Source: Bryobacter aggregatus MPL3 | GTDB taxonomy: Bacteria; Acidobacteriota; Terriglobia; Bryobacterales; Bryobacteraceae | Assembly: GCF_000702445.1 (NCBI RefSeq) | Contig: NZ_JNIF01000004.1 | Span: forward strand, 434,001-498,000 | Direction: 5' to 3' | DNA: 64,000 nucleotides | Part shown: one piece after another, positions 8,961 to 41,899 of the stretch | Numbering within the stretch: the stretch's first letter is position 1 | How the letters are laid out: every line of letters begins with the position of its first letter | Program-made: the position numbers and the translations under genes | The notes under the pieces: generated by a model | Seen by the model: only the letters and a program-made list of their open reading frames with translations | What the model was told of the DNA's origin: nothing | Databases searched by the model: none

Positions 8961-10140
8961 GGCCCTTCGTCCATTCGAGAATGAGATAGCCCAGCAGGGG
9001 AGGGAAGGCCACGGCAACACAGACGGGCGCAAAGCTGTTGTACTGGTCGGCCACCTTTCCGATGAGCGGTGAGATGACAAGCTGGAGGAAGCCGTAGCCC
9101 GCGGTCAACAGCGAGACGGCGAAGGCGGCGCTGCTGCCACCGTAGGCATCGAGCGGCATCGTATAGAGATTGACGCTAGCGGCGGAACTGGCCCCGTAGC
9201 TGAGCGAAATCAGGATCATCGCCCAGGTGGGGTCTGGCGCGAGCGGCACTGTGGCCGAGATCATCATGCCCAGGACACCGAAGAGATAGATGCGGCGGCG
9301 CGCGTTCAATGGCGCCCAGCCGGACTTCATCAGGCGCATGCTGGCCCAGCCGCCCAGGAAGGAGCCAGCGAGGCCGACGTATTGCAAGATGGGCGAGATC
9401 TGATTCGCTTCGATCGTTGTGAAGTGGAAGGTGCGGACAAAGTAGTGGTTGGTCCAGGTGGTCCACAGCGAGAAGATGCCGAGCGAGAGGATGTTTGCAA
9501 GAATGAAGCCCCAGGTCTGCGGCATGCGCAAAATCTGTTTGGCATCGTAGCCGGTGGATTCCTTTGAAGCCACTTGTTTCGGTGCTTTTTTCGAAGCCCA
9601 GAACCAAAGCGGAATCCAGAGGAAACCGAGCCAGCCGGCGACAAAGAAGGCGCTTCTCCATCCCCAATGCTCGATACAGAAATTTGCGAGAAAGGCGGAG
9701 GCGGTCATTCCGATGACGAGGCCGATTTGCGACATGGAGCTGCCGACGGCGCGCTCTTCCTGGCGCAGATAGGTCTGGGCCGCTTTTGCCGTGGAGGGGA
9801 TGCCGGCAGATTCGCCGACGGCTACGAAACCGTGCGCGGTGACCAGGCTGGCCAGGCCGCCAGTGAGGCCGCGCGCGATGCCGGCCAAGCTCCACCAGGT
9901 GAGCGCGACGGTCGTGCCGACATTGAGCCCGGCCCGGTCAAGGAACCAGCCCATCAGCGGCGAACTGATCATGTAGACGAGATAGAAGGCGGTCTGGATC
10001 CAGCCGAATTGCTCATAGCTGAGGTGGAATTCTTTCATGAATTCCGGGGAGAGTGCGTTGAGGATCGATCGGTCGAGGTAGTTGACGCTGGAGGAAAGGT
10101 AGAAGATCGCAACCACCCACCAGCGGTTCTTTTCGTTCAT
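8935..10140 (-). CDS. MFS transporter, anion:cation symporter (ExuT/hexuronate-like) type
   Basis: 401 residues with about 12 membrane segments. N-terminal 'VNYLDRSILNALSPEF' is the ACS-family signature (NYxDR), followed by 'GWFLDRAG' and 'GVGESAGIPSTAKA'-type sequence. Family members import hexuronates, other sugar acids or related organic anions with H+ or Na+. The ATG abuts the stop of the upstream 543-residue gene (TAAATG), and the end overlaps the glycosyltransferase. Specificity cannot be read from sequence, but sugar-acid dehydratases elsewhere in the window would suit a uronate or aldonate transporter. Confidence 0.8.
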   Translation of the reverse strand: MNEKNRWWVVAIFYLSSSVNYLDRSILNALSPEFMKEFHLSYEQFGWIQTAFYLVYMISSPLMGWFLDRAGLNVGTTVALTWWSLAGIARGLTGGLASLVTAHGFVAVGESAGIPSTAKAAQTYLRQEERAVGSSMSQIGLVIGMTASAFLANFCIEHWGWRSAFFVAGWLGFLWIPLWFWASKKAPKQVASKESTGYDAKQILRMPQTWGFILANILSLGIFSLWTTWTNHYFVRTFHFTTIEANQISPILQYVGLAGSFLGGWASMRLMKSGWAPLNARRRIYLFGVLGMMISATVPLAPDPTWAMILISLSYGASSAASVNLYTMPLDAYGGSSAAFAVSLLTAGYGFLQLVISPLIGKVADQYNSFAPVCVAVAFPPLLGYLILEWTKGRGTQTLRT

Positions 10141-11772
10141 TTAAGGAAGGAGTTCCATTGTGATTAGTTTTTTGTCTTTGTGGCCTGCTTTGATCTTGCG
10201 GGCAGGTCTTTGGATGCCGCAGGAGAAATGGAAAGTCTTGGCACCCGCGCCGCTGAGGATCAGCTTGGCCGGGTCGTCCACTTCGAAGAAGCTGAGTCTG
10301 CCGTTTGCGTCCCGGACAACAAAGCGGGCCTTGCCGCCGCTGAGACAATCGACACGCGTCAGGCTGCCGCTGAGCGTGCCGGTGGGTTGATCGGCGTCCC
10401 ACCAGGGCTCGACTTTGGTTCCGGGATCGAGAGGCGCGAGGTTCCCGCGAGCTTTCGCCTCGGCCTCGCGGACGCGGCGCAAACTCTCTTGCTTGACGCG
10501 CTCAATGTCGCGAAGACGCGCTTCTTCTGCTTCTTTGCGAGCCAGTGCTTCGGCTTCGTAGCGGCGATCCTGAGCACCGAGTCTTGCCTGGCGCAAAGCC
10601 TCTTTCTGGGGGCCATCGAAGGCCGCCCGTTCGGCGGCTGCCCAGGCTTTGGCTTCGTCTGCATATTGCTCGGCCGCTTGTGCCGCCTTTGCCAATTGCA
10701 TCTGGTAGCGGGCGTCGCGCGGCGCGGCCGGCGCGGCTGTCTTCAAGGCATGGAAGGCCTTCATTGGATCGTTTTCTTTGCTGGCGAAAGCGAGAGCGGC
10801 ATCGGGGTAAAGCGGTTTGAGCTGGAGGGAAGTGAAGAGGTTCTGCTGGTGCTTCAATCGGTCGGGCTGTCCCACAGCGGCGAGATAGAGCGACCTGGCC
10901 GTGGGGGGCGTCACTTGAGAAGCCTCAATGGCTGCTTGTTCCGCATTGCCCGATAAGGCGGCGGCAGCAGCGAGGCATTCGGGATTCTTTGTCGCAAGGC
11001 AGGCGCGGGCGCGCAGATTCGGATCGCTCAACTGGGCGATAGCGAGTTGTAGATTGGCTTCCTCAGGGTCGACGTCGCGAGCGCGGTAGTCGCGATCGGG
11101 CAGGATGGTTCTGGCCGGATAGGTGACCGGAGCAAGCTTTGCCTCCGCGGCTTCTTTGCGCAGCGTGGCTTCGTCTTTTTCGAAGGCATTGCGCAGTGCG
11201 GTTGGCTTGTCGGTGCCTTTCATGACATTCGACAGAAACACGCGGATGCGGCCTCGATAGGCGTCGTTGGTGATCAGGTACTCGACCAGCGTCCAGTCGG
11301 GCGTCTGCTGGGCCTTGGGGGGAAGGGCACCAAGCGTCACCCGGACGCGTTCGGATTCGATGCTGCTCAGCACGGTGAGCAGCGCGTCTTCGAGGCCCGG
11401 CTCGAGAGGACCGGCATTGGTGGCGAGAAGCAGCGACAGGATCTGCCGCTTCTGTTGCGTCGTCATCACTGCGTCGCTGAGCAGCATGCTGTATGCGCTG
11501 GCGGTTTCGGTGAGGTTGGTGGCACGCTGCGTCTTTGCGATGACGAGGCGAACGGGCCAGATGGTTTTCAGTTCGGTGATGCCGGTGAGATCGGAGAGTT
11601 GCCCGCGCATCTGCTCAAGGGTGCCCAGGAGATTCTTTGCGGCTTTGATGTCGCCGCTTGTATAAATCTCATAAGGACCGGCATTGATCTTTTGCCAGTT
11701 CTCCGCTCGCAAGCTGACCAGGGCCAGCAATAGCGCGAATAGTTTCACTCTCCATGAGTTTACGAAATGCAC
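10141..11772 (-). CDS. exported TPR/coiled-coil hypothetical protein
   Basis: 543 residues. It has a signal peptide (VKLFALLLALVSLRAENW), then an N-terminal region like exported acidobacterial peptidase-associated proteins ('YEIYTSGDIKAAKNLLGTLEQMR'), a helical repeat middle, and a strongly charged coiled coil around residues 410-450 ('RRYEAEALARKEAEEARLRDIERV...'). The C-terminal 80 residues are beta-rich ('GTLSGSLTRVDCLSGGKARFVV'). No catalytic motif is evident. It is the first gene of the run into MFS, glycosyltransferase and GNAT genes. Confidence 0.6.
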   Translation of the reverse strand: MHFVNSWRVKLFALLLALVSLRAENWQKINAGPYEIYTSGDIKAAKNLLGTLEQMRGQLSDLTGITELKTIWPVRLVIAKTQRATNLTETASAYSMLLSDAVMTTQQKRQILSLLLATNAGPLEPGLEDALLTVLSSIESERVRVTLGALPPKAQQTPDWTLVEYLITNDAYRGRIRVFLSNVMKGTDKPTALRNAFEKDEATLRKEAAEAKLAPVTYPARTILPDRDYRARDVDPEEANLQLAIAQLSDPNLRARACLATKNPECLAAAAALSGNAEQAAIEASQVTPPTARSLYLAAVGQPDRLKHQQNLFTSLQLKPLYPDAALAFASKENDPMKAFHALKTAAPAAPRDARYQMQLAKAAQAAEQYADEAKAWAAAERAAFDGPQKEALRQARLGAQDRRYEAEALARKEAEEARLRDIERVKQESLRRVREAEAKARGNLAPLDPGTKVEPWWDADQPTGTLSGSLTRVDCLSGGKARFVVRDANGRLSFFEVDDPAKLILSGAGAKTFHFSCGIQRPARKIKAGHKDKKLITMELLP

Positions 11773-11784
11773 TACATTGAGGGG

Positions 11785-12246
11785 ATGCTGAGACGAATTC
11801 TTTTACTTGCAGTTCCAGCCGCGATGCTGCTTGCGGCAGACAAACCCGACTACTCAGGTCACTGGGTGATCGATACAGCCAAGAGTGATTTTGGTCCGAT
11901 GCCGGCTCCGGAAAAGATGGAGCGTGACATCGATCATAAAGATCCACAGATGAAGGTCAAGTCGCTGCAAAAGAGCGAGCGAGGAGAGTTCACTACAGAT
12001 AGCCAATACACAACCGATGGTAAGGAAAGCACCGTCCAGATGCGCGGCCGTGAGGCAAAGGTGAGCGCCAAGTGGAATGGCAACAAGCTCGAGGTGCATA
12101 CCAAGAGCGAGTTCAATGGCATGGCGCTGACCCAGAAAGAATCCTGGTCTTTGTCCGGCGACGGCAAGACGCTCACGATCAATAACGAGATCCAATCGCC
12201 GCAAGGCGAGTTCACGATGAAATCAGTATTTACGAAAGGCAGCTAA
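11785..12246 (+). CDS. exported lipocalin-like hypothetical protein
   Basis: 153 residues from the ATG at 11785; an ATG at 11767 is also in frame but would put the signal peptide internally. 'MLRRILLLAVPAAMLLAADKPDYSGHWVIDTAKSDFG' is a signal peptide followed by the 'GxWxxDxxKSxFG' opening shared by a large family of small acidobacterial exported proteins. The rest is alternating beta strands, as in a lipocalin-type barrel. Function unknown. It diverges from the 543-residue gene with only 12 bases between starts and converges with the hydrolase, overlapping it by 24 bases. Confidence 0.65.
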   Translation: MLRRILLLAVPAAMLLAADKPDYSGHWVIDTAKSDFGPMPAPEKMERDIDHKDPQMKVKSLQKSERGEFTTDSQYTTDGKESTVQMRGREAKVSAKWNGNKLEVHTKSEFNGMALTQKESWSLSGDGKTLTINNEIQSPQGEFTMKSVFTKGS

Positions 12247-19959: not shown

Positions 19960-20089
19960 ACACCACTGCGAAGACCATCAGGACATAGCGGCCAACCTGA
20001 TTCGCCTCATCGTCGATCCCGTCAATTTGGCGAATCAGCTTCTGTACGGCGTCCTGTTCCGTCTTCGGAGCTTTTTGTAACAGCGGCAC
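19907..20089 (-). CDS. 60-residue single-TM membrane protein, translationally coupled to aguA-like gene
   Basis: I place the start at the GTG at 20089, which overlaps the aguA stop as TAGTG and has a good ribosome site (AAGGTG) just upstream; the longer open frame runs through aguA coding sequence. The protein begins 'VPLLQKAPKTEQDAVQKLIRQIDGIDDEANQVGRY' (soluble, probably cytoplasmic) and ends with one hydrophobic helix ('VLMVFAVVFTLAAGLLLVVI'). That makes it a tail-anchored protein. Family unknown. Coupling suggests a link to the agmatine pathway, perhaps membrane tethering, but that is inference. Confidence 0.55.
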   Translation of the reverse strand: MPLLQKAPKTEQDAVQKLIRQIDGIDDEANQVGRYVLMVFAVVFTLAAGLLLVVILNPKL

Positions 20090-21123
20090 TACACCTTGAT
20101 TGTACGCGGGCGGGGTTCCTGCTGCGTCATGCAATGCAAGGTGCCCAGGCCCAGTACCAGATCGCGGCAATAGATCGGAATGATGCGGCGGGTGGGAAAG
20201 AGTTTGGCTAAGGTATTGAGTGCCTCGCGGTCGCGCGCGTCGTTGAAGACAGGGGCGAGCACGATGTCATTGGCGATGTAGAAGTTGGCGTAGCTTGCGG
20301 GCAGACGCTGGCCTCCGAAGAAGACCGGCTCGGGCATCGGCAGGGTTGCCACCTTCAGGCCCTTCACCTGCTTCAGGATCGCCAGGTTCTCGCGCAGGGC
20401 TTCGTAGTTGTCGTCATTCTTGTCGCTCTCCTGGACGACGACCACCGTACTCTCGTCCGTGAATCGCGCCAGGTCGTCGATGTGGCCATGCGTGTCGTCG
20501 CCGACGATGCCATTCTTCAACCAGATTGTTTTCTCGATGCCCAGGTACTTTGCAAATGCGGCTTCGATTTCCTCTCGGGTCAGACCGGGATTACGCGCCT
20601 GGACATCGCTGAGCAGGCACTCTTCAGTGGTGAGCATCCAGCCTGCGCCATTCACCTCAATCGAGCCGCCTTCGAGCACGACGCGGCGCTTCTTGGACAT
20701 CGGCTCATGCCGTTTGACGTTCAACATCCATGCCGCGACGCCAGGCAGCGCGTCGTCGTGCGCGTAATTGTCGTACTTGGCCCAGGCGTTGAAGGACCAA
20801 TCGGTGGCTTCCACCTTCCCCTTCGCGTTGTGGACAAAGATTGCCATCGTGTCGCGGACCCAACTGCGGTCTGTCGGGGCGACCACAAAATCGACCGCGG
20901 CCAGCTCGACATGGCACTTCTTCAGAATCTTCCGGACGGACTCTTGCGTCTCCCGGCTTTCCACCACAATGCGGACGCGCTCCACTTGGGCAAGGTGGCG
21001 CACGATGTCGCCGTAGAGCCAGGGGATGGGGGCAAATTTGCCCGGCCAGTCTGTCTTCTCATGCGGCCAGGCGAGCCAGGTGCCTTCGTGGGGGGCCCAT
21101 TCGGCGGGCATACGGAGGGCCAT
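20089..21123 (-). CDS. aguA: agmatine deiminase (peptidylarginine-deiminase family)
   Basis: 344 residues from the ATG at 21123, which overlaps the aguB stop as TAATG; an in-frame ATG at 21135 is possible. Family features are 'MPAEWAPHEGTWLAWPH', 'DRSWVRDTMAIF', 'EGGSIEVNGAGWML', 'DDTHGHIDDLARF', and the C-terminal nucleophile 'LGTLHCMTQQEPR'. The enzyme hydrolyses agmatine to N-carbamoylputrescine and ammonia. The co-transcribed N-carbamoylputrescine amidase makes the agmatine assignment stronger than for a lone deiminase. Confidence 0.88.
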   Translation of the reverse strand: MALRMPAEWAPHEGTWLAWPHEKTDWPGKFAPIPWLYGDIVRHLAQVERVRIVVESRETQESVRKILKKCHVELAAVDFVVAPTDRSWVRDTMAIFVHNAKGKVEATDWSFNAWAKYDNYAHDDALPGVAAWMLNVKRHEPMSKKRRVVLEGGSIEVNGAGWMLTTEECLLSDVQARNPGLTREEIEAAFAKYLGIEKTIWLKNGIVGDDTHGHIDDLARFTDESTVVVVQESDKNDDNYEALRENLAILKQVKGLKVATLPMPEPVFFGGQRLPASYANFYIANDIVLAPVFNDARDREALNTLAKLFPTRRIIPIYCRDLVLGLGTLHCMTQQEPRPRTIKV

Positions 21124-22019
21124 TACTTGGCCCACCGCTGCGTGATCGCGCCGTAGTTGTCGATACGCCGGTCGCGGAAGAAGGGCCAGTTGCGGCGCAC
21201 TTCCTCCATGCGGGCGGGATCACAGGAGACGACCAGATTCTCTTCCTTGTCATGCGAGGCTTCGGCGATCACGACGCCAAAGGGGTCGGCGACAAAGGAG
21301 TTGCCCCAGAATTCGAGGCCCGAGTCGGGCGTGCCTTCAAAGCCGACCCGATTGACGGCGCAGACATAGATTCCGTTCGCGATGGCATGCGAGCGCTGGA
21401 TCGTCTTCCAGGCGTCGAGCTGCGACGGGCCGTACTCGGCCTTCTCGTGCGGATGCCAGCCAATCGCGGTCGGGTAGAAGAGGATGTTTGCGCCCTGCAT
21501 CGCAGTGAGGCGCGCGGCCTCGGGATACCACTGGTCCCAGCAGATCAAGACGCCAATGCGTCCAAAGGGCGAATCGAAATTCAGGAAGCCCAGATCGCCG
21601 GGCGTGAAGTAAAACTTCTCATAGAAGAGCGGATCGTCAGGGATGTGCATCTTGCGGAAGATGCCTTGCAGCTCTCCGTCCGTGCCGATGATGGCGGCGG
21701 TGTTGTGATATAGCCCGGTGGCGCGCTTCTCAAAGAGGCTGGCGACGACCACAACGCCCAGTTCCTTGGCAATCTTGCCAATTGCGGCCGTCGAGGGGCC
21801 GGGAATCTGCTCGGCCAGATCGAAGAGCTCCGCCTTCTCTTCGCGGCAAAAGTATTGGCTGCGAAAGAGTTCCTGCAGACAGATCACCTGCGCGCCGGCC
21901 TGCGCTGTCTCGCGAATCTTCACAATCGCTTTGTCCAGATTTTCCTGGGGGTTCAGAGAGCAGGACATCTGCACGAGTCCTACCCGGAAGGGCTGCAAAT
22001 TTGCCATCGTTGTTATCAT
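21123..22019 (-). CDS. aguB: N-carbamoylputrescine amidase (nitrilase superfamily)
   Basis: 298 residues (or 294 from the ATG at 22007). The nitrilase Glu-Lys-Cys triad is visible: Glu in 'ICLQELFRSQYFC', Lys in 'FRKMHIPDDPLFYEKFYFTPGD', and Cys in 'GVLICWDQWYPEAARL'. The 'FRSQYFC' and 'PDDPLFYEKFYFTPGD' stretches are characteristic of AguB/CpaA. It converts N-carbamoylputrescine to putrescine, CO2 and ammonia. With aguA and the small membrane protein it forms a tightly overlapped operon. Only about 10 bases separate it from the divergent FAH gene. Confidence 0.9.
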   Translation of the reverse strand: MITTMANLQPFRVGLVQMSCSLNPQENLDKAIVKIRETAQAGAQVICLQELFRSQYFCREEKAELFDLAEQIPGPSTAAIGKIAKELGVVVVASLFEKRATGLYHNTAAIIGTDGELQGIFRKMHIPDDPLFYEKFYFTPGDLGFLNFDSPFGRIGVLICWDQWYPEAARLTAMQGANILFYPTAIGWHPHEKAEYGPSQLDAWKTIQRSHAIANGIYVCAVNRVGFEGTPDSGLEFWGNSFVADPFGVVIAEASHDKEENLVVSCDPARMEEVRRNWPFFRDRRIDNYGAITQRWAK

Positions 22020-22869: not shown

Positions 22870-24066
22870 ATGAACGTCGCAGATCGAATTCTGGCCTATC
22901 ATGAGGGACGCGACCCGGACCGGCTCGCGCTGAAGTACCGGCTGATTGCGAATTCGCCTGCCGCCTTCTTCCGCGGCACCGCAAACCTCTTCTATGAGGA
23001 CCTGTCGAAAGATCTTGCGACGTTGCCGTCATCTCCTAAGGGCTGGATCTGCGGGGACGCGCATCTGGAAAATTTCGGCGTCTACAAAGGCGACAACCGC
23101 CTGGTCTACTTTGACTTCAACGACTTTGACGAGGCAGGGCTTGCCCCTGTACTGCATGAAGTGCTTCGGATGTTGACCAGCATCCACATCTCAGCCGAAG
23201 AACTATTGCTGAAGCCAGAGGATGGCCGTTTTCTGGCGGAAAGCTTTCTCGCCGATTATGCAATCGCTCTCGGAGAAGGGAAGCCGCGCTGGGTGGAGCG
23301 GGCGACAGCCCGCAATGGCGTCCGGGACCTGGTGTATTCCTTGAAGGGCCGCAGCCGGAAGCAACTGCTGCGCAAGCGGACAGTACTCGATCGCGGTTTA
23401 CGGCGATTGCGGGACGATGGCGAGTTTGCCTTGCCGCTGTTGCCCGGCGATTGGGAACGGCTGCGCGTGTTGCTCGCCCGCTTTGGCGAAGAAGTGGGCC
23501 GTCGTGGTTTCTATGAACTGTTGAGCGCGGCGCGCCGGATTGCGGGCAATGGAAGTCTGGGCGTAGGCCGCTTCATCTTGTTGGTGGAGGGTAAGGGTTC
23601 GCCACACCACAACTACCTTCTCGATTTGAAGCAGGCCCGTCCAAGCGTCATGGGCGGGCAATCCGGTTGGACCTCGGAGGCACAGCGCGTGGTCACTATC
23701 CAGCGGCGTGTGCAGGCTGTTTCTCCGGCTTTTCTCCATGCCGTGACGCTGGACGATGGCTCTTACATCCTGCGGGAACTGATGCCCGGCGAAGACCGCG
23801 TGCGCTTGCCGCTCTACGCAGGGCATCCTGCCGGTTTACGGCAATTGCTGAGCGCGCAGGCTCATGTCATGGCCTGGGCTCAATTGCGAGCGAGCGGACG
23901 GCAGGGCTCGGCGATTGCCGACGAACTGATCGAATTTGGCAATGACTTCACCTGGCATAACGCCGCGCTCGAATGGGCTCAGTGCTACGCATTGCAAGTG
24001 AAGCGCGATCAGCAAGATTTTGCCGCTTCGATGGCTAGCGAGTCGCCAAGCGTCGTAGTTCAGTAA
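22870..24066 (+). CDS. DUF2252-family protein (kinase-like fold)
   Basis: 398 residues. The family landmarks are 'RYRLIANSPAAFFRGTANLFYEDL'-type sequence near the start, 'GWICGDAHLENFGVY' (HLENFG, resembling the catalytic loop of APH-like kinases) and 'LVYFDFNDFDEA' (the DFD-like metal site), then 'DLKQARPS' and 'RELMPGEDR'. DUF2252 proteins are predicted to have an aminoglycoside-phosphotransferase/choline-kinase-like fold with unknown substrate. ATG follows the FAH stop directly. The 3' end overlaps the convergent GT-GT-TE gene by 32 bases. Confidence 0.75.
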   Translation: MNVADRILAYHEGRDPDRLALKYRLIANSPAAFFRGTANLFYEDLSKDLATLPSSPKGWICGDAHLENFGVYKGDNRLVYFDFNDFDEAGLAPVLHEVLRMLTSIHISAEELLLKPEDGRFLAESFLADYAIALGEGKPRWVERATARNGVRDLVYSLKGRSRKQLLRKRTVLDRGLRRLRDDGEFALPLLPGDWERLRVLLARFGEEVGRRGFYELLSAARRIAGNGSLGVGRFILLVEGKGSPHHNYLLDLKQARPSVMGGQSGWTSEAQRVVTIQRRVQAVSPAFLHAVTLDDGSYILRELMPGEDRVRLPLYAGHPAGLRQLLSAQAHVMAWAQLRASGRQGSAIADELIEFGNDFTWHNAALEWAQCYALQVKRDQQDFAASMASESPSVVVQ

Positions 24067-27046
24067 CAAAGGCAGCGGGCTCGTGGAGGAGCCAGAAATG
24101 ATCGCCCGCAACCGGAACATAGCGGAACTCGGTTGCCGTTTCCATGCCCCACTCCTGCACGGGAAGCTGCTGTTCTGCCTCGCCCTTCATCGCGGTGAGT
24201 GGCAAGTCAAGCGGTCGTTCTTCCACATAATAGTGCCTGCTGAACATCTCTTGGTCCGAGCGTTGTAAGGCGGGGATCTCCTGTTCGCTCCGTGAACTGA
24301 CGCGCCGCAGGCGCGGCGCCGAACAACTGGAGACCAGCAGTCCTGTTGCTTGCAGGCCACCGCGACGGCGCAGTTCCCGCGCCACCTCGAAGGCTAAGCC
24401 GCCGCCCATCGAATGCCCGGCGAGGATAAACTTTTCCCCAGCTTCGACGATAGTGGCCAACTCGTCACAGAGCACCGGGACGAGCGTCGCAAAATCAGTC
24501 GGTGGCTCCTGTCCGGCACGCTCTTCGCGTCCGGGAAGCAGCGCCGGAATCAGGCACAGGCCGTCGTGATTTTCCTCGCGCAAAAATTTCCAGGCTTGTG
24601 TCCCGGCTGCCGCCCAAGGAAACAGAAACACCTTCGTGCCCGTGCCCCAACGGATAGGGAATGCACGATTGCCCCATAGCCTGCGCATCTGTTCCAGCCG
24701 CAGCGCGAGTAGCTTCCGCTTGGTCTCCGAGAAGTGTCCAATCGTGACATCGAGCGCCGTGCTGCGCTTCGGGCTGGCCAGGACCTTGCGGAAGATCTTC
24801 TCGAGTGGTGCGACGGAGAGTCCGCGCAGATAGTCGAGCGCAGCCGCGCGGCCGCGTGCATGCAGTTGCTTCCAATGTTGCGGATTGCCAACCAGGCTCT
24901 GCAGGGCGGCCACCCAGGGGCCGAGATCCTGTTCGGGCACTTCGGCTTCTGGAACCATCTGGTCGCTGACCGTCGTCTTGTAGTGGCGGATTTGTTGGAT
25001 CGGCAGGACATAATCCATGCCGCACATCGCCTCGCGCAAGCCGCCCACATCGGAGGCCAGCACCGGCACGCCGCGCGACAGGCTTTCGAGCACCATGCGG
25101 CTGCGCGCCTCGGCCCACAGGCTAGGCACCAGCGTGACCCGCGTCTGGCGCAACACGTCAGTAATGTCCTCCACCCGCGGCAGCAGCGTGATGTTGGGCC
25201 GTGCCTCCATCGCTGTGCGGTCCTCACTGGTGGTGCCCCAGCTTGGCACTGCCGCAAACTGCGTCTCGGGCATCGCATCGGCCAGGCCCAGCAGAATCGG
25301 CAGCCCCTTTACTGCACTCGGATTGACGAGGGTGACATAGGGGTTCTCGAAGCGTCCGACGTCGGGCGGATTCGAGTCGTCGGACAGCGAAATCGGAACA
25401 TGCACGGCGTCGAGCCCTGCTTCTTCCCGGCAGTAGCGGGCGACATACTCGCTGACGCCAACGATGGCGTCGGCTCGGCGCAGACGCTCGATACGTTCTT
25501 CGCTGTAGGTCGAGGCGTCAGGGCCAAAAGGCAGCGCGATCGTAGCTCGTACTAGATAGACGACACGAGCTTTCTCGTACTGTAAGGCTGGTTCCAGCAG
25601 CAGGTGCGCCGGGTCGTCGGTCGAGGCGAGGATGATGTCCGGTTCAAACTCGGCAATATCCTGCTGCAAGGCCTGCCGCAGATTCACCTTCTTGGTGACG
25701 ACGTGGACGCTGGCGCCATTCAGTTCAAACTGAACGCCCATGCCCTCCCAATCCTGCACCGGCATGCCGCGCCGCGCGATTTCCGCTTCGTAGGCTGCAT
25801 GATCGCCTTCGCCGAACTTCTCAAGGCGCGTGAAGACGCGTAGCGTATGGCCTTCGCGGGCAAGTGCGGCCATCAGCAGGCGATTCGACTTGTCGCCGCC
25901 GCCGGAGCCCGGAAAATAGGTGGAGTTGTGGATTAGATAGATCCGGCGGCGCTTCGGCCGCAGCGTGTGCAGCAGCGCTTCGAGATCGTTTTCGCTGACG
26001 CCTTTGACAAAGTCGCGGGCCGCCATCATGACGTGCAGACGTTCGTTGGCGTAGAGCTTCTCATCGCTCATCATCTCGTCGAGCGCCCGTGCCCAGGCAT
26101 CGACCGGCTGCGCTTCCACTACGCCGACCGGCATTCCTGTTTCATCGCGCTTGGGCAGCCAGCGTTCGATCGGACGCACCGGCAGGCGATAGCGGGAACT
26201 GGCCGCCGCCTCCTCGAGCCCGCCATGCGCGCTGACCATCACCGGCACGCCGCGCATCATTGCTTCGGTCACGACCAGGCCAAAGCCTTCGTACCAGAGC
26301 GAGGGGGCCAGCAGCAGCGAACTGCGCGCAAACACCTCGTCAATCTCCGGAACGGCATCGAGCACTTCGAGATTCGGCAAAGCCTGCATCGCCGCAATGT
26401 CTGCGGAAGTGGTGCCCCAGCCCTTTAGGGCCAGGAACTGCAACTGCGGAAAACGCCGCGCCAGTTCGAGATAGATCGGTAGACCCTTTGCGGTGCAAGG
26501 GTTGATCAGCAGAATGCTCTGCTTGTGGAAGTTGTCGTAGGACGGCCAGGGCGGCTCTCCATACATCGCGGGATGTACGACATGAGCCTGCCGTCCCAGA
26601 TGCTTCTCGATATAGCTCGCCATGTGCGTGCCGATCGAGACGATGGCGAGGGCGTCCTGCAAGAGGGCCGCCGCTTCGGCGTCAGGGTGCCAGGCTTCCG
26701 GTCCAAACGGGAACCACTGCGGTGTATGGGCGAGATAGACCAGACGGTCCTTCGCCGTGCGATGCGCCTCGCGGAGCAGCACATGGGACAGGTCCTCGCT
26801 TGAGACCAGCACAAAGTCCGGATCGAAATCACGAACGGCATCTCCCACGCGGTTGCCGCTGCGCCCAATCTCTCCGATGCCACGAATCCGGACCCCATCG
26901 ACAACGGTCTCCCGATCTTCTCCACCGCAAACGACCAGGCATTCATGCCCACGTGCGGCCAGCGCACGGAGCCAGATCAGATTGCTGCGCGTCGATCCAC
27001 CCTTGGGAGGGTCATAGGAGGCGCTAGCGGCTAACAGAATCCGCAT
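24035..27046 (-). CDS. trifunctional protein: two GT4 glycosyltransferases fused to a type II thioesterase
   Basis: 1003 residues with three domains. GT1 (1-350) starts 'MRILLAASASYDPPKGGSTR' and has a donor site around 'WYEGFGLVVTEAMMRG'. GT2 (368-735) starts 'RRIYLIHNSTYFPGSGGGDKSN' and has 'EARSRMVLESLSRGVPVLASD'. Both carry a 'NP..-KGLPI' stretch and a 'GTTS-DR/DI' motif, so they look like an internal duplication. A 'SETKRKLLALRLEQM' linker (773-788) resembles sequences that follow carrier domains in NRPS. Residues 803-1003 are a TEII/alpha-beta hydrolase: 'GLCLIPALLPGRE', nucleophile Ser879 in 'GHSMGG' and His983 in 'AGDHFWLL'. The start overlaps the FkbH-ACP gene by 23 bases. GT-GT-TE fusion is unusual. 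Confidence 0.85.
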   Translation of the reverse strand: MRILLAASASYDPPKGGSTRSNLIWLRALAARGHECLVVCGGEDRETVVDGVRIRGIGEIGRSGNRVGDAVRDFDPDFVLVSSEDLSHVLLREAHRTAKDRLVYLAHTPQWFPFGPEAWHPDAEAAALLQDALAIVSIGTHMASYIEKHLGRQAHVVHPAMYGEPPWPSYDNFHKQSILLINPCTAKGLPIYLELARRFPQLQFLALKGWGTTSADIAAMQALPNLEVLDAVPEIDEVFARSSLLLAPSLWYEGFGLVVTEAMMRGVPVMVSAHGGLEEAAASSRYRLPVRPIERWLPKRDETGMPVGVVEAQPVDAWARALDEMMSDEKLYANERLHVMMAARDFVKGVSENDLEALLHTLRPKRRRIYLIHNSTYFPGSGGGDKSNRLLMAALAREGHTLRVFTRLEKFGEGDHAAYEAEIARRGMPVQDWEGMGVQFELNGASVHVVTKKVNLRQALQQDIAEFEPDIILASTDDPAHLLLEPALQYEKARVVYLVRATIALPFGPDASTYSEERIERLRRADAIVGVSEYVARYCREEAGLDAVHVPISLSDDSNPPDVGRFENPYVTLVNPSAVKGLPILLGLADAMPETQFAAVPSWGTTSEDRTAMEARPNITLLPRVEDITDVLRQTRVTLVPSLWAEARSRMVLESLSRGVPVLASDVGGLREAMCGMDYVLPIQQIRHYKTTVSDQMVPEAEVPEQDLGPWVAALQSLVGNPQHWKQLHARGRAAALDYLRGLSVAPLEKIFRKVLASPKRSTALDVTIGHFSETKRKLLALRLEQMRRLWGNRAFPIRWGTGTKVFLFPWAAAGTQAWKFLREENHDGLCLIPALLPGREERAGQEPPTDFATLVPVLCDELATIVEAGEKFILAGHSMGGGLAFEVARELRRRGGLQATGLLVSSCSAPRLRRVSSRSEQEIPALQRSDQEMFSRHYYVEERPLDLPLTAMKGEAEQQLPVQEWGMETATEFRYVPVAGDHFWLLHEPAAFVTELRRLATR

Positions 27047-29042
27047 AGCGCTGGTATTCCTCGTTGTATGCTGCTTCAGCTTCTTCGTCGGTCAACGCCC
27101 GGATCTCCGCCAACAAATTTGCATATTCTTCACTCCCCACGCCCCCAAAACAGACGAGTTCATCGATCCGCCGTGCCATCTTCTCTAAGGTCACATCTGC
27201 CGCGTAAACGTCATCAATACCCAGCGTTACGCCAAACTCTTCTTTCACGCGCATCAGCAGCAACACCACCATCAGCGAATGGCCGCCGAGATCGAAGAAA
27301 TTGCTGCCTTCGCTGACCGTCTCTGCATGCAGCAGGTCCTGCCAGATCGCGGCCAAGCGCGTCTCGCTCTCCGTTGCCAGTTGCACGCTGCTATGCCCGC
27401 GCATCTGCTTGAGGATTGCTGGTACCGTACGCAATTCGCGAGCGATCCGGGCGTAATCCACTTCATGCTGCGCCGGCGCCTGGGCCTTGGGTGCGGCCAC
27501 CGTTTCCGCCGGGCGGCGGGTATCGACTGCTGTCGCGCGCAGGATTTCCGCAGAAACCCGGGCGGGGAATTCCTTCCAACCCAGACTGTTGAGGAATTGC
27601 AGGGCCGGAGCATTTTTTGCGGAGGGGACAAAAGGAATCGAGACCTCGTCACTCCCGAGCCGCGCTCCAAGCCAGGCGAGCACCCGATGCTCCACACCGC
27701 GGCCGAGCACGCGGCAACTCAACAGAAAATTCTCGATCCGGTACTCACTTCCTTGTTGGTTGCCCACCAGTAACCCCGTAAATCCGTAGTCACCAAAGCG
27801 ATCGCGGACATGGATGCCCCAGATCTCGCTGCCACTTGTGGCCAGAGTCTGCAACTCGCCTTCGCTCCGCCGGATGGTGGTGAAGTTGAACTGGTTTGTG
27901 CGTTGCGTCAACTGCGCCGCGCGCGGCCATTCTCCACCCTGTACGGGCCGGATGTCGAGCTCCAACTCGAGCGTCTGATAGAAATCTTCGAGCGAGTGCG
28001 CCTCATGGAGCGCCTTGCCGAACTCCTGCACCTTCTCGTAGCTGGCCGCGCGTTGCGTGTCTGCTGCGGTGATCCGCATCCGGTCGAAAGCCCAGACATG
28101 CTTCAGAAATCCCTCGAACTCTTCCGGTCGCTCCGGCAGTGCCAAGCTCAACACTTCCGGCAACTGCTCATCGACCTCCGATATCTCCTTTGGGTTGTCG
28201 TCGAGAAAGATGAAGCTGTCCAGGCCAAGCGACAATTCACTGGCGATGGCGCGCAGGCCGATTGGTTTCGGGTTCCAGTCGATACGATGCGCGGTGATGT
28301 CGCTCCAGCGCAGCGGAAACTCCTCGTGCGAGGCAAAGGTGTCGCGAGCATCGGTGAGATTATTCTTGCTGCTGAGCGCCAGCAACATTCCCGCTTCCCG
28401 TTGCTGCAAGGCAAAGCGTTGCAAGGCATGGTGCCCGGGAGTTAAGAAAACTCCCTCGGCCCCGTCTTCGCCGCAGATGCCACTCCACAGCGTGTGGTCA
28501 CAATCGAGCGCCAGTACCTTGTAGGGTGCATGGAGAATCGCGTGCGCCGCGCGGACGACGGCACTGCCGAGCGCGATGAAATACTCCGCGGTATACGGTA
28601 TGCCGCCCAGCTTTTCGCCTTCTTCACTGAAACGATGCTCGACGGGATACCAGTCCTGGATCCGGCCGGGCGTCAACAGATAGGTTCCGGGCATCTCGTG
28701 CCACCAACCGGGCAGTTCTTCATCGGGCACTACAAGCAGGGGAGCGGCGAGCTGTCCGGCTTTCGCTTCAATTGCGGCCCGCAGTGCGTTCGCATTTTCT
28801 TCGCGTCTCCTGGCATCGCCCAGGTCGCGCCAGCGAAACAGCAGAACATTCAGGCCATGGGTATTGGTTCCAAAAACGCTGGCTGGATCGAGTAGTGTCT
28901 GAATCACCTGCCCGAAGGGGGCAAACTGCGTTGTGAACTCGGAATGGAGCGGACCCCGCCAGAACTCGATCGTGTGTTCGATCGGCTCAGCAGTGAAAGT
29001 GGAGGCAAATGCAAAGCAGAAGGGGACGGAAGTGGACGCCAA
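27024..29042 (-). CDS. FkbH-like HAD glyceryltransferase/phosphatase fused to an acyl carrier domain
   Basis: 672 residues. The N-terminus (1-160) resembles the FkbH N-domain ('FAFASTFTAEPIEHTIEFW'). Residues 173-330 are the HAD-IIIC core with the DxD motif at Asp180/Asp182 ('LALDCDHTLWSG'), Ser/Lys in 'LALSSKN' and 'FIFLDDNP'. Residues 355-500 form a GNAT-like C-domain ('QRTNQFNFTT', 'DRFGDYGFTGLL'). After a Pro/Ala linker, residues 555-630 are an ACP/PCP with phosphopantetheine Ser589 in 'FFDLGGHSL'. Characterised FkbH proteins form glyceryl-S-ACP from 1,3-bisphosphoglycerate. Here enzyme and carrier are one chain. No phosphopantetheinyl transferase, KS or condensation domain is nearby. Confidence 0.87.
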   Translation of the reverse strand: MASTSVPFCFAFASTFTAEPIEHTIEFWRGPLHSEFTTQFAPFGQVIQTLLDPASVFGTNTHGLNVLLFRWRDLGDARRREENANALRAAIEAKAGQLAAPLLVVPDEELPGWWHEMPGTYLLTPGRIQDWYPVEHRFSEEGEKLGGIPYTAEYFIALGSAVVRAAHAILHAPYKVLALDCDHTLWSGICGEDGAEGVFLTPGHHALQRFALQQREAGMLLALSSKNNLTDARDTFASHEEFPLRWSDITAHRIDWNPKPIGLRAIASELSLGLDSFIFLDDNPKEISEVDEQLPEVLSLALPERPEEFEGFLKHVWAFDRMRITAADTQRAASYEKVQEFGKALHEAHSLEDFYQTLELELDIRPVQGGEWPRAAQLTQRTNQFNFTTIRRSEGELQTLATSGSEIWGIHVRDRFGDYGFTGLLVGNQQGSEYRIENFLLSCRVLGRGVEHRVLAWLGARLGSDEVSIPFVPSAKNAPALQFLNSLGWKEFPARVSAEILRATAVDTRRPAETVAAPKAQAPAQHEVDYARIARELRTVPAILKQMRGHSSVQLATESETRLAAIWQDLLHAETVSEGSNFFDLGGHSLMVVLLLMRVKEEFGVTLGIDDVYAADVTLEKMARRIDELVCFGGVGSEEYANLLAEIRALTDEEAEAAYNEEYQRYADSVSR

Positions 29043-37446: not shown

Positions 37447-38076
37447 GGCCGGCAAGGTGAGCGTGGCGGTGAAGAATTCCCAGTCTGCCGTCGTGTGGTC
37501 CGGATAACTGCGCACCACGGTTGCCGTCAGTTGGGAAGCCTGTGTGAGCGCGGGAAGCGGCAGTTGTCCCGCGCCGTTGGTGCGCCCGATTGGCTTTCCA
37601 TTCAGGTTGATCTGGACGTCGTAGACCGGTTGGCCCCGAAACTTCAACTGCACCAGTTGCGGATGTAGAAGGATCAACTCGACAGGAAGATTCAGCTCGA
37701 TTGGGATGATCTCTTCCGGCGCGCCGACGCGGACCAGGGTCTTGGCGTAATCGGTGCTGAGGATTCTTGCCGGCTGGGCGCTGAGCTTGTACTGCTTGCG
37801 ATACTGCTGCACCATGCTGATCCCTTCCTGGCGGATCAGTTGCTCGAAGTCCGGAGCCTTCACTGTGCGCACCACGGCTCGGGTGGCCGCGCTGATCCAG
37901 TATGTGCCCGGGGCGGGCAGCGTGAGCGTCGGCGGATCCCAATAGCCGCTGGCTTTGGCCGACTTCCAGCGCAAGTGCTGGGCCTTCTGTTCAGCCACCG
38001 GGATATTCACCGGACCGGGCGAGACCAACTCATGGGTGCCGGGAATCAGAAAGAGAGTGGAGAGGAGTGCGATCAC
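37432..38076 (-). CDS. exported DUF4198 (NikM-like) protein of the chelatase operon
   Basis: 214 residues from a GTG at 38076, which yields signal peptide 'MIALLSTLFLIPGTHE'; earlier in-frame starts lie inside the chelatase transmembrane coding region. It contains the DUF4198 pattern: 'APDFEQLIRQEGISMVQQYRKQ' and 'STDYAKTLVRVG', followed by beta strands ('VYDVQINLNGKPIGRTNGAGQLPLPAL', a carboxypeptidase-regulatory-like repeat). DUF4198/NikM-type domains accompany nickel/cobalt and other TonB-linked uptake systems. It overlaps the CobN-like gene by 47 bases, giving the order TonB receptor, chelatase, DUF4198. Confidence 0.65.
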   Translation of the reverse strand: MIALLSTLFLIPGTHELVSPGPVNIPVAEQKAQHLRWKSAKASGYWDPPTLTLPAPGTYWISAATRAVVRTVKAPDFEQLIRQEGISMVQQYRKQYKLSAQPARILSTDYAKTLVRVGAPEEIIPIELNLPVELILLHPQLVQLKFRGQPVYDVQINLNGKPIGRTNGAGQLPLPALTQASQLTATVVRSYPDHTTADWEFFTATLTLPALSQR

Positions 38077-41000
38077 TTGTATCCAGAGTATGACGACGGA
38101 GGAAGGCGGAGACCGCACCCGCGCCCAGACAAGCCAGAACCAGGCTGAGCCAGAGAACCGGGTTCTCATCGAAGACCCGGCGGGCGCGGCGGGCAAAATT
38201 GGAAACGCGGATCATGTTGATCTGCGGCATCGGCTTCGGTGCTGCGATCGCCTGCTTCTGCCTGGACGCAGGACGGACTGCTTCCTCGAAGCTCTTGGCA
38301 ACAGCCTGGGAATCGGCATTGCTCGCCTCAGCGATGACGGACTGCTGGAGCCGCTGATTGCCGCAGGTGTTGGCCGAACAGGCGACGCCGTTCTTGCTGA
38401 CGAGTTGCGAGAACTCGTGCAGGAGCTGGCGCTTATCTGCGGCGTTGAACTTGTAGACGCCTTGGCGGTCGATCTCAAGAAGACGGGCGACAAGGTTCTG
38501 GCGCATGGCCGGGTTGGCCTGATCGAAGAAGCCCTTGAGGCCAAGTTTGTACTCGTCTGCGACATAGACGTCGTACATCTTCTTCCATGCTTCGGGCGCG
38601 ATGGTCTCGGGCGCGGTGGCCTGCCAGCCGTACAGATGCTCGACCGCCTTGGTCATCTCACGTGCGCCGGAGTAGCCTTCCTTCTGCATCTCGGCAATCC
38701 ACTTGGGGTTCCAGTTGCGCGCGTTCAGCTCGGTGGCGATGAAGTTGCGGGCGCTCTCGAGCTTTTCATCGCCGTGGCGGCGCATGTTGTTGACCAACAG
38801 CTCCGGCTTAGCTCCGGCGGCTTCGGAAGCAATGAGGAGGCCTCCCATCCACTGGTAGACGTCGTCGTTGTCGACGGCTCCGTAGAGATTGGAAGAGCGG
38901 CTGTGCAGGATGACTTCGTTGCCCTGGAGCTGGCTTTCGAGCAGCTTTGGCACTGTGCTGCCCCAGGCGGACTCGGTGTAGACATAGTTCATCTTCGAGA
39001 GGTAAAGCTCGGCCATCGTATTGGCTTCGTCTTTGTCGCGGCTCTGTTCGACAAACTTCTCGAGTCCGAAGCCGTAAGCGCCCGGGGCGGTGGTAAAGAC
39101 GCGGGCTCCGGCGACGGCGGCAGCTTGCTTCGGGTCGACCCCGGCGGCGAGGAGTTTGGCTTCGGTCTGACGGTTCTGCCTGCTGAGCGCGTTGTCGCCT
39201 GCTGAGGCAGCCAGATGGGCAGCGCGGTCGAGGAGCAGGATCTTGTCGGGCAGGCCGTCGCGGTAGAGTCCGCTGACGGTGAAGACGACGTTGACGCGCG
39301 GGCGGCCGAGTTCGGCGTCGGGAATCAGCTTCAGCCGGTCGGGGACGCCTCGTTGATTCCATTCGGGCTCGACGCCCATGAGGTAAAGCGCTTGCGCTTC
39401 CATCGCCCCCTGGTGACGGCCGGTCTCGCCTTGCCAGAGCACCATCGAGAGACGCTCCGGATAGCGGCCGTGGCTTCGTTTGTGTTGTTCGAGAAGTTGA
39501 TTCGCCATCCGCTTGCCCACTTCCCAGGCGGCTTTGGTGGGCAGTAGGCTGGGGTCGCCCTGGTGCAGGTTGCGGCCGGTGGGGAGACCGGCGGGCACGG
39601 CGATGGGGTCTCCGACGGGAGCACTCGAAACGAAGCCAGCGTTGAGGGCTTCAATGAGGACTTCGAGTTCGCGGGAGGGGGATTGGCGGAGCTTGGCGAG
39701 CCAGGTGGCGGTGGCGTCGATGGCCGCGGCGTTGGGGGCGCCGATTGGCTTCGTTCCGTCAAAAATCGCATTCGCCCAATCGGGAATCAGCGCGGCCCAA
39801 CGCTTCGATTCGGTGGGGGAAAAGTTCGAATCGAGGAAGGTGGCCAGCGCGGCGCGGACGCGGTCTTCTGAGGGCATCTTGCCCAGAGTCGGGAGGCCCA
39901 GGGGAATGGGTGCGTCCTCGATGCTTTCGAGGAAGTTGCTGACTTCTTCGAGCGGGATCTGCTTGTCGATGCCGGCCTTTGCCATCGCCTCGGTGGCTTG
40001 TTTTGCGTAGACGGCGGCGAGGCCCGGTGAAGTCTCTCGTGTCAGTTCCCATTGGTTGACCGCCTCGCGGAGCGCGGCGAAGCGATCCTCTTTGCCCGCG
40101 CGGACGAGCATTGGCGTGAGGTGGCTGAGATCCACAGCGGCGGCGCGGCGGCGAGCCTGCACCGCCTCTCCGTCGCCGTCCATGATGTAGTAATTCAGAT
40201 TCGGCAAGTCGCCGAGGATGACTTCCGAGCAATCCCATCCGGCCTGGCCTGCGTTCTTGCCGGGCAGCCATTCGAGGGTGCCATGACGGCCCATGTGAAT
40301 GACTGCGTCGGCTTGAAACTGGTGGCGGTAGTAGAGGTAAGCGGCGACATAGCCGTGGTGGGGCGGGAGCGTGCCGCTGTGCTGGACATTGGTATATTCG
40401 GCGAAGCTCGCGCGGAGCAGTTGCGGGCCGAGGAAGACGTTGTCGAGAGTGATGCCGGGGATGACGAAGAACTTGCGGCCACGATCGTCCTTCCAGGTCA
40501 TCAGTGTGGCGGCTTCGGGCTGCCCCCAGCGGCCGTTGATCGAATCGCGAAAGCGCTGCGGCAGGTCGCGAAACCATTGCTGGTAGCGATCGACCGGCAG
40601 CAGGGTGACGCCGCCTTCGGCGATCATCTTCGTCAGTTCGCCCGGAGCCCAGGTCTCGACGTTGCGGCCGGTCTTCTCCAGTTGAGAAAGGATCTTCCCG
40701 GCAGTGGGGATGCGGGCTCCCACCTGGTAGCCAGCCTGGTTCAGAGTTTTGAGAACCGCCTCGATGCTAGGTGGGAGATTCAGGTAACTCGCGCCGAGAT
40801 TTCCTTTGCCGGGCGGGTTGTTGTAGTAAAGGATGGCGAGGCGCTTCTGGGCGTTTGGTTTGTCGGCGAGGCTGACCCAGCGGCGGGCGCGGCGGGCGGC
40901 CATTTCGATGCGTTCGGGGATGGGCAGGGTGTGGGCGAGACCATGGGCATCCAGCTCCGTGGTGGCGACGAGGATGGGGTCCGTAGCTCCGGCTGATTCC

Positions 41001-41890
41001 GGGTTGGCGATCGAGGTGGCGATGCGGTCTGTGCTGACGCCGCGTGGGGTTTCGGCCCAGGTGGCGTAGTTGTCGCGCGTGGTGATGAGGCTGATGGTGT
41101 GGACATTCTGCTTTTGGAGAAAGAGGATGTCTTCGGGACGCGTGAGGCTGAGGGTGAAGGTGAGCAGCACGCGGAGCGGATCTTGCGCGGGGGCCTCGAA
41201 GACTTTCTCCAGCGTGTGGTGCGGCCAGCCGACGATGCCTGCCGCGGCGAGGCCTTCTTTCTCGAGAGCGCGGAGCTGGGCGTCGATGAAGGCCAAGTCG
41301 CCGTTCTTCAGAAAGGTGTGGAAGAAGCCAAGAGCGGCGAGGCGGCCCTGCTTCGGTTTCGCTTGCCGGTACCAGGCGAGGTAGTCGGTGAGATTCGGAA
41401 AGAGGCGCGGCGCATCGGGATGGTAGATGCCCGTCTTGGGGACTTCGATGGGCGGTGGAATGTCGAACTGCTTGCGGCCACCGGCTTCCCGATAGGCCGT
41501 GCGGAAGAAGGCCCGCAGATTCGCGTCGCCGCCGTTCTGGAAGTAGGGCAGCAGGCGGCGGGTGAGCGCGAGCGAGGGCTCGACGCCCCAGGCGCGTTGC
41601 ACGAGGTCGGGTGTGTCGGTAGCGACTCGCATGCCTTTGGCGATGGCCTCGAGTGCGAGTGTCTTTGAGCGGGTGAGGAAGTCCTGACTGGGGTGCTCGA
41701 GGAAGAGCACTTGGACGCCGTCGAGATCTGGCAGCCGGAGGTCTTCCCGCGCGAGTGTGCATTCGAAGTCGGGTATTTCCTTTTGCAGTTCGGTGAGGAT
41801 GGCCGGTGCGCTTTGGGCGCTGCGCAGCAAGAGGACGGCGCGCGGTTGCGCGCAGGCGGACAGAGCAAGAAGGAAGAGCAGGTGGCGCAT
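38030..41890 (-). CDS. membrane-anchored CobN/BchH-class chelatase (HmuS-like)
   Basis: 1286 residues, the size of CobN. Core chelatase motifs are present: 'HMGRHGTLEWLPGK' near residue 530, 'IMDGDGEAVQARRRAAAVDLSHL', 'VLWQGETGRHQGAMEAQALYLMGVEP', and 'NVVFTVSGLYRDGLPDKILLLDRA'. Cytoplasmic CobN lacks export signals, whereas this protein starts 'MRHLLFLLALSACAQ' with a lipobox-like LSAC (Cys13) and ends with one TM helix (about 1243-1263) and a basic tail. It therefore probably acts in the periplasm. That layout recalls HmuS of Bacteroidota hmuYRSTUV loci. No CobS/CobT or ChlI/D partner is nearby. Substrate could be heme, cobalamin precursor or another metal tetrapyrrole. Confidence 0.82.
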   Translation of the reverse strand: MRHLLFLLALSACAQPRAVLLLRSAQSAPAILTELQKEIPDFECTLAREDLRLPDLDGVQVLFLEHPSQDFLTRSKTLALEAIAKGMRVATDTPDLVQRAWGVEPSLALTRRLLPYFQNGGDANLRAFFRTAYREAGGRKQFDIPPPIEVPKTGIYHPDAPRLFPNLTDYLAWYRQAKPKQGRLAALGFFHTFLKNGDLAFIDAQLRALEKEGLAAAGIVGWPHHTLEKVFEAPAQDPLRVLLTFTLSLTRPEDILFLQKQNVHTISLITTRDNYATWAETPRGVSTDRIATSIANPESAGATDPILVATTELDAHGLAHTLPIPERIEMAARRARRWVSLADKPNAQKRLAILYYNNPPGKGNLGASYLNLPPSIEAVLKTLNQAGYQVGARIPTAGKILSQLEKTGRNVETWAPGELTKMIAEGGVTLLPVDRYQQWFRDLPQRFRDSINGRWGQPEAATLMTWKDDRGRKFFVIPGITLDNVFLGPQLLRASFAEYTNVQHSGTLPPHHGYVAAYLYYRHQFQADAVIHMGRHGTLEWLPGKNAGQAGWDCSEVILGDLPNLNYYIMDGDGEAVQARRRAAAVDLSHLTPMLVRAGKEDRFAALREAVNQWELTRETSPGLAAVYAKQATEAMAKAGIDKQIPLEEVSNFLESIEDAPIPLGLPTLGKMPSEDRVRAALATFLDSNFSPTESKRWAALIPDWANAIFDGTKPIGAPNAAAIDATATWLAKLRQSPSRELEVLIEALNAGFVSSAPVGDPIAVPAGLPTGRNLHQGDPSLLPTKAAWEVGKRMANQLLEQHKRSHGRYPERLSMVLWQGETGRHQGAMEAQALYLMGVEPEWNQRGVPDRLKLIPDAELGRPRVNVVFTVSGLYRDGLPDKILLLDRAAHLAASAGDNALSRQNRQTEAKLLAAGVDPKQAAAVAGARVFTTAPGAYGFGLEKFVEQSRDKDEANTMAELYLSKMNYVYTESAWGSTVPKLLESQLQGNEVILHSRSSNLYGAVDNDDVYQWMGGLLIASEAAGAKPELLVNNMRRHGDEKLESARNFIATELNARNWNPKWIAEMQKEGYSGAREMTKAVEHLYGWQATAPETIAPEAWKKMYDVYVADEYKLGLKGFFDQANPAMRQNLVARLLEIDRQGVYKFNAADKRQLLHEFSQLVSKNGVACSANTCGNQRLQQSVIAEASNADSQAVAKSFEEAVRPASRQKQAIAAPKPMPQINMIRVSNFARRARRVFDENPVLWLSLVLACLGAGAVSAFLRRHTLDTSDRTPLHSLSDSRHP

Positions 41891-41899
41891 CGTTTTGCT

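Follow-up and report, generated by a model that had tools for sequence, protein, structure and literature searches.

The DNA examined here, referred to as the window, is a stretch of 64,000 nucleotides from Bryobacter aggregatus MPL3 (contig NZ_JNIF01000004.1, positions 434,001 to 498,000), a member of the Bryobacteraceae within the Acidobacteriota. It carries two minus-strand genes, one encoding an FkbH enzyme fused to an acyl carrier protein (ACP) domain and the other encoding two glycosyltransferases (GTs) of the GT4 type, GT4a and GT4b, fused to a thioesterase (TE). A first-pass annotation of the window had described these genes as overlapping by 23 bases, and the open reading frames have exactly this arrangement (Table 1). 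The two genes, and sets with the same five domains elsewhere, are called the cassette in the following.

Table 1 Positions of the cassette genes, their domains and selected residues in the window.
Feature	Position	Strand	Basis
FkbH-ACP gene	27024..29042	-	672 aa, TTG start; TIGR01686, TIGR01681 and PF00550 matches
FkbH Asp180, leading aspartate of the HAD motif; Asp182 two codons on	28503..28505	-	invariant in 29 sequences
Cys443 in motif SCRVLGRGVEH	27714..27716	-	invariant in two alignments (15 and 29 sequences)
Carrier protein domain, residues about 556-630	27153..27377	-	PF00550, residues 562-626
Phosphopantetheine attachment Ser589 of carrier	27276-27278	-	invariant in 29 sequences
Overlap (23 bases) of the FkbH-ACP and GT4a-GT4b-TE genes	27024..27046	-	ORF coordinates
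GT4a-GT4b-TE gene	24035..27046	-	1003 aa, ATG start; Pfam matches
GT4a domain, residues 1-362	25961..27046	-	VIA Z 30.2 to HepE 4xso; Glu253/Glu261 and Lys187 invariant
GT4b domain, residues 366-759	24770..25951	-	structure matches; Glu646/Glu654 and Lys580 invariant
Type II-like thioesterase domain, residues 793-1003	24038..24670	-	PF00975; BorB 6vap match
TE Ser879	24410-24412	-	invariant, 68/68 TE domains
Glu958, at column of TE catalytic Asp	24173..24175	-	alignment of 68 TEs
TE His983	24098-24100	-	invariant, 68/68 TE domains

The 672-residue protein is matched by the FkbH model TIGR01686 with 268.2 bits (cut-off 146.65), by the HAD-IIIC model TIGR01681 and, at its C-terminal carrier domain, by the PP-binding model PF00550 with 48.4 bits (cut-off 20.8). 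Asp180, Asp182 and the carrier residue Ser589, which the first-pass annotation had singled out, are invariant in an alignment of 29 FkbH-ACP proteins, and so are Ser225, Lys259, Asp281 and Asp282. Cys443 is a candidate acyl-thioester cysteine. AlphaFold2 (AF2) models of both cassette proteins, a check that the annotation had suggested, reached a mean predicted local distance difference test score of 86 for FkbH-ACP and 88 for GT4a-GT4b-TE; their predicted template modelling scores were 0.65 and 0.61, and the mutual arrangement of the domains was left unused. The solved structure nearest to the FkbH-ACP model is BF1531 (3slr).

Published studies describe FkbH enzymes that make glyceryl-ACP from 1,3-bisphosphoglycerate together with an ACP (tetromadurin Mad7/Mad8 and Mad14/Mad12, PMC7489565; glyceryl loading from this donor is stated also in PMC8949500), and an FkbH domain of vioprolide biosynthesis reported to activate D-3-phosphoglycerate (PMC10099666). 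In nonribosomal peptide synthetase (NRPS) lines, FkbH is reported to replace the adenylation domain and to load glyceryl on the carrier (PMC6520454, PMC13122637, PMC8949500, PMC10099666). By analogy with these systems, the carrier of the cassette would hold glycerate. That the same carrier logic serves a different load, lactate or another small acid taken from a phosphorylated precursor, is improbable in our estimate; other acids have been ascribed to enzymes of the FkbH-like kind, such as lactate to BryA, and sequence alone cannot fix the load, but the score against the FkbH model is far in excess of the cut-off and there is no variation at the HAD residues.

Two stretches of the 1003-residue protein match GT4 models (PF00534 81.1 bits, PF13439 66.6 bits, PF13692 also over its cut-off), and the protein is matched by the thioesterase model PF00975 with 71.1 bits (cut-off 26.4), in agreement with the annotated architecture of two GT4 domains and a thioesterase with Ser879 and His983 on one chain. 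The E-x7-E pairs Glu253/Glu261 of GT4a and Glu646/Glu654 of GT4b are invariant among 21 fused proteins, together with both thioesterase residues. The closest structural neighbours of GT4b (VIA) were sucrose-phosphate synthase 6kih (Z 31.5), MshA 3c4q (31.1) and BaBshA 3mbo (30.6), a fold search that does not settle the GT4 subfamily of either GT. BshA and MshA, GT4 enzymes of low-molecular-weight thiol synthesis, thus have their fold in common with the cassette GTs; they use small polar free acceptors and are not known to have a carrier protein or a TE. The BaBshA structure contains UDP and the small hydroxy acid L-malate, although the fold match shows no function. The TE superimposes on BorB 6vap with a Z score of 27.6 and an rmsd of 2.0 over 208 residues, and the solved structures nearest to it, BorB and RifR among them, are those of type II enzymes.

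A search with two peptide patterns, which is therefore biased to close relatives, yielded 79 related loci from the best 80 of 96 matches, mostly in records labelled Bryobacter, Bryobacteraceae, Bryobacterales or Acidobacteria metagenome-assembled genomes; a few labels, such as Arcobacter, Nevskia and Phycisphaerales, seem to be misnomers. All five domains are present at 62 of these loci, and the remaining 17 are without one or more domain matches. The order FkbH-ACP, GT4a, GT4b, TE and the common strand are the same in all 62 complete copies. FkbH and ACP share one frame in every one of them and GT4b and TE in 60 (by script, the exceptions being L111 and L151), while GT4a and GT4b are joined in 21. 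With script-chosen starts, the FkbH stop and the GT4a start overlap or are at most 6 bases apart in 55 of the 62, the overlap being 23 bases in four relatives and 16 bases in nine more. A Niveispirillum plasmid (L187) that encodes a relative of the GTs showed no FkbH, ACP or TE match on 25 kb and was not scored as a cassette.

The annotation had also raised the co-occurrence of the two proteins among relatives. Profiles of both were found in 93 of 200 genomes of the family and neither in 98, with GT-GT-TE alone in five and FkbH-ACP alone in four (totals 98 and 97), meaning that about half of the sampled family keeps the set. These counts use cut-offs of E 1e-120 for GT-GT-TE and E 1e-140 for FkbH-ACP that were set after the lists were viewed; weaker matches (ten GT and eight FkbH genomes) are scored as absent, and a GT-GT-TE match may be partial. 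The Fisher value for co-occurrence is 4.6e-45, treating genomes as independent and with no kinship correction. In two of the genomes with FkbH only (G447 and G448) the match lies in open frames as long as those of NRPS proteins (2775 and 3852 aa). In a set of 61 genomes, the window's own and relatives, the same 24 hold strong matches to both proteins (E 1e-90 or better for the GT protein, 1e-120 or better for FkbH-ACP). One further genome (G006) has a TE fragment only, at a contig start, and another (G057) has FkbH-ACP only (1e-113). At these limits the pair was found in none of 20 order-mates outside the family (G037-G056), G044 having a weaker FkbH match of 7.8e-70. One genome (G036) retains FkbH-ACP, GT4a and GT4b-TE on three separate contigs. 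Pairwise distances of FkbH and of the GTs correlate (r 0.87-0.90, 63 copies), as linked genes that are inherited together would be expected to do; this says little on function.

Chance adjacency of the two genes is ruled out by the constant order in the 62 complete relatives and the co-occurrence across the 200 genomes. The same observations, with the overlaps and a gene found behind the TE at some loci (see below), uphold the proposal that FkbH-ACP and GT-GT-TE form one unit. The annotation had further stated that neither a ketosynthase nor a condensation domain is present. The condensation domain model PF00668 has no match in the window's genome and neither domain occurs in the two proteins, so this part stands; for ketosynthases the statement covers the two proteins, a genome-wide search not having been made. 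PF00975 likewise has no second match in this genome beyond the cassette TE, and a place of the cassette within a described NRPS or polyketide synthase (PKS) is on these two grounds ruled out there. It is very improbable that FkbH-ACP supplies an unlinked pathway beside an unrelated GT-GT-TE gene whose TE only edits mis-loaded carriers: editing is the usual work of type II TEs, but the genome is without a condensation domain, and the fixed order and co-occurrence of the genes also speak against this.

No generally conserved neighbour was found outside the cassette in up to 10 kb of flanking DNA at the 79 loci. The commonest family is an MFS transporter (20 of 79 loci; the adjoining convergent gene in 13 of 61), followed by GFO/IDH oxidoreductases (15 loci), which were given no weight as partners since their position is scattered, and a 2-hydroxyacid dehydrogenase (4 loci). 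With a phosphopantetheinyl transferase (PPTase), these are the recurrent neighbours among the families scanned and none is general; within this scope a wider conserved cluster is rejected. The larger described cluster whose presence the annotation had considered was not seen: there are no NRPS/PKS or glycan-polymer genes among the recurrent families scanned around the 79 loci, and no linked export or polymerisation genes of polysaccharide type among these families or the scanned window neighbours, the scan having left out neighbour-family clusters 4, 6, 7, 10, 14 and 15 and most single neighbours. In the window, a DUF2252 gene (22870-24066) converges on the cassette and overlaps the stop end of the GT-GT-TE gene by 32 bases; relatives of it are present in four loci of the genus.

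The PPTase (PF01648, about 190-205 aa) is co-directional behind the TE in 16 of the 79 loci, of which 70 contain a match to the TE and 64 extend for at least 800 bases past it. In five loci the PPTase start and the TE stop overlap by 3-6 bases; in L140 the gene is about 760 bases past the TE, and in L124 the match is weak (8.7e-12). We read this PPTase as Sfp-like from its length. The gene is a stronger link between the cassette and carrier-protein chemistry than the names of the domains are, and given its presence behind the TE, the cassette probably works around its carrier protein.

The explanation that we favour, and hold tentatively, is a self-contained carrier-tethered pathway to a small glycosylated acid, in which a glyceryl load would receive two GT4 glycosylations before TE release. 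FkbH would draw glyceryl from a phosphoglycerate, which in the usual scheme is 1,3-bisphosphoglycerate, strip the phosphate and charge the phosphopantetheine arm on the ACP at its own C-terminus. GT4a and GT4b would each attach one sugar, most simply at the free hydroxyls of the ACP-held glyceryl, and the TE fused to GT4b would act on the same ACP and free the product, which might be a diglycosyl-glycerate, either hydrolytically or through hand-over to an acceptor. Glycosylation on the carrier, the number and kind of sugars and the mode of release are all inferred. GT4b and TE share a single frame in nearly all complete copies, and the GT fused to the TE may therefore be expected to meet the same ACP. 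The lack of a general neighbour and this near-constant fusion fit glycosylation on the carrier, because only phosphoglycerate and NDP-sugars would be needed. The NRPS literature contains proposals of chemistry on carrier-bound glyceryl, namely methylation and sulfation of the FkbH-loaded unit in suomilide (PMC13122637) and ester formation in vioprolide (PMC8949500).

The cassette shares FkbH-carrier loading with the NRPS modules that combine FkbH and a peptidyl carrier protein (PCP), such as those of dysinosin (DysB), suomilide (BslA), vioprolide, cystomanamide and corramycin, but it has no condensation domain next to it and its partners are instead two GT4 domains and a TE. Tetronate and methoxymalonyl-ACP systems also combine FkbH and ACP; there, however, the ACP is a separate protein and the glyceryl passes to a FabH-like enzyme or gets oxidised. 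FkbH-carrier fusions and GT4 enzymes are thus known, whereas their combination as a conserved stand-alone unit is, as far as we have seen, apparently undescribed; no description of it was found among the matches listed in the open-licence PMC literature, as far as the excerpts of these papers extend.

The chief rival is acyl transfer, in which the two GTs would assemble a short glycan or glycolipid on an acceptor of the cell and the ACP-bound glyceryl would be moved onto it by the TE as a decoration. We consider it rather unlikely, and glycosylation on the carrier is the more economical model, as an outside acceptor is not needed. The GT-TE fusion in 60 of the 62 complete copies speaks for acyl transfer, and so do GT-less chains in exopolysaccharide-type clusters elsewhere. 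FkbH-ACP-TE single chains are encoded in Aquisphaera giovannonii (pOJF2_1, L186), in a genome from the window's phylum but from a different family (G302, L189) and in G057 (L061); they have FkbH, carrier and thioesterase in common with the cassette, but the GTs are missing from those chains. The chains of L186 and L189 lie inside exopolysaccharide-type clusters. In L189 (9456-15253) a gene for an A-PCP-TE protein directly follows the FkbH-ACP-TE gene. A looser relative is present on a plasmid of Streptomyces sp. NBC_00441 (L185), which encodes FkbH-ACP, a GT4 that is 35% identical to GT4b, a TE, a free ACP and dTDP-sugar genes, as well as an EryCIII-like GT, a condensation-domain protein, a GH38 protein and an exporter; unlike in the cassette, the parts are unfused, the TE is on the other strand and the cluster is larger. 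The evidence from beyond the window's phylum consists of plasmid records. Acyl transfer is in turn opposed by the recurrent neighbour families scanned, which include no polymerase, flippase or lipid-linked sugar transferase (single neighbours were partly scanned), and by the type II enzymes nearest to the TE, which are mostly hydrolases.

Several observations weigh against the carrier-tethered pathway. The GT-less chains in exopolysaccharide-type clusters fit acyl transfer at least as well. The literature search, in open-licence PMC papers, found nothing on glycosylation of a carrier-bound acceptor. We know of no GT4 enzyme that acts on such an acceptor. One locus (L142) has FkbH-ACP, GT4b and an FkbM methyltransferase, with no TE or GT4a match on 15.8 kb; GT4b followed by an FkbM methyltransferase where the TE would stand is also found in L145 (553-2602) and L150 (4121-6254), the counterpart in L142 being at 7716-12194. 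The TE of the window's genus is unusual as well. The acid of its catalytic triad, which the annotation had not named, falls in a column where 60 of 68 sequences have Asp, seven have Glu (the window, the five genus relatives L076-L079 and L081, and L104) and one has Gly (L080), and all seven copies from the genus have Glu or Gly there, six of them Glu. In these seven copies the lid is short, the stretch before the acid (residues 914-931) having 10-20 residues compared with 35 or more in the other copies sampled outside the genus. Finally, the Sfp-like PPTase profile had no match in any of eight genomes of the genus, nor in 14 of 24 cassette genomes (ten match), several of the 14 being incomplete. 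The window's genome shows one PF01648 match, in an AcpS-like frame, and no match to PF22624 or PF17837. If no Sfp-like enzyme is present in the genus, either AcpS primes a PCP-like carrier or the genus uses the carrier differently.

These features of the genus could be read in two further ways. The short lid and the change from Asp to Glu could mark a hydrolase turned transferase, as acyl transfer would have it. They could also, with the unmatched PPTase models, mark decay or altered use, the ACP staying apo without an Sfp-type PPTase and the TE being weak. The latter has little probability in our view, as both window proteins have open frames and are 59-66% identical to those of four relatives in the genus, Ser589, Ser879, His983 and the GT motifs are retained, six of the seven TEs in the genus keep an acidic Glu at the acid column, and AcpS may serve the carrier.

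Carrier proteins are the scaffold on which fatty acids, polyketides and peptides are made. It is possible, although doubtful, that the cassette is a thiotemplated sugar assembly line, its GTs building a glycan on a carrier-held acid that the TE frees, without NRPS or PKS chemistry. If true, it would be a minimal form of thiotemplated sugar assembly that is common in one bacterial family, and the conserved set of carrier, loader, two GTs and TE would extend carrier-protein logic to sugars. A metabolite or envelope group that is widespread in a family of soil bacteria, yet unknown, would then be indicated by the cassette, which comprises only two or three genes and so is testable in E. coli.

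Other carrier and FkbH genes occur in the window's genome. At L200 (G000:C3, around 1577177) a free-standing 84-aa carrier protein forms another small carrier locus and is flanked by two proteins that we read from their open reading frames as SGNH-like (460 aa) and FabH-like (315 aa). A second, distant FkbH is encoded in a 575-aa frame on a 48-kb contig (G000:C2, L071-L073; C2:29011-30093) that also has GT4-like matches. Elsewhere in the window, a PAD_porph (agmatine deiminase-like) gene and a CN_hydrolase gene overlap (20089-22019), which we take to be a putrescine-route pair, and a gene for a CobN/Mg-chelatase-like protein adjoins one for a TonB-dependent receptor (38030-44095).

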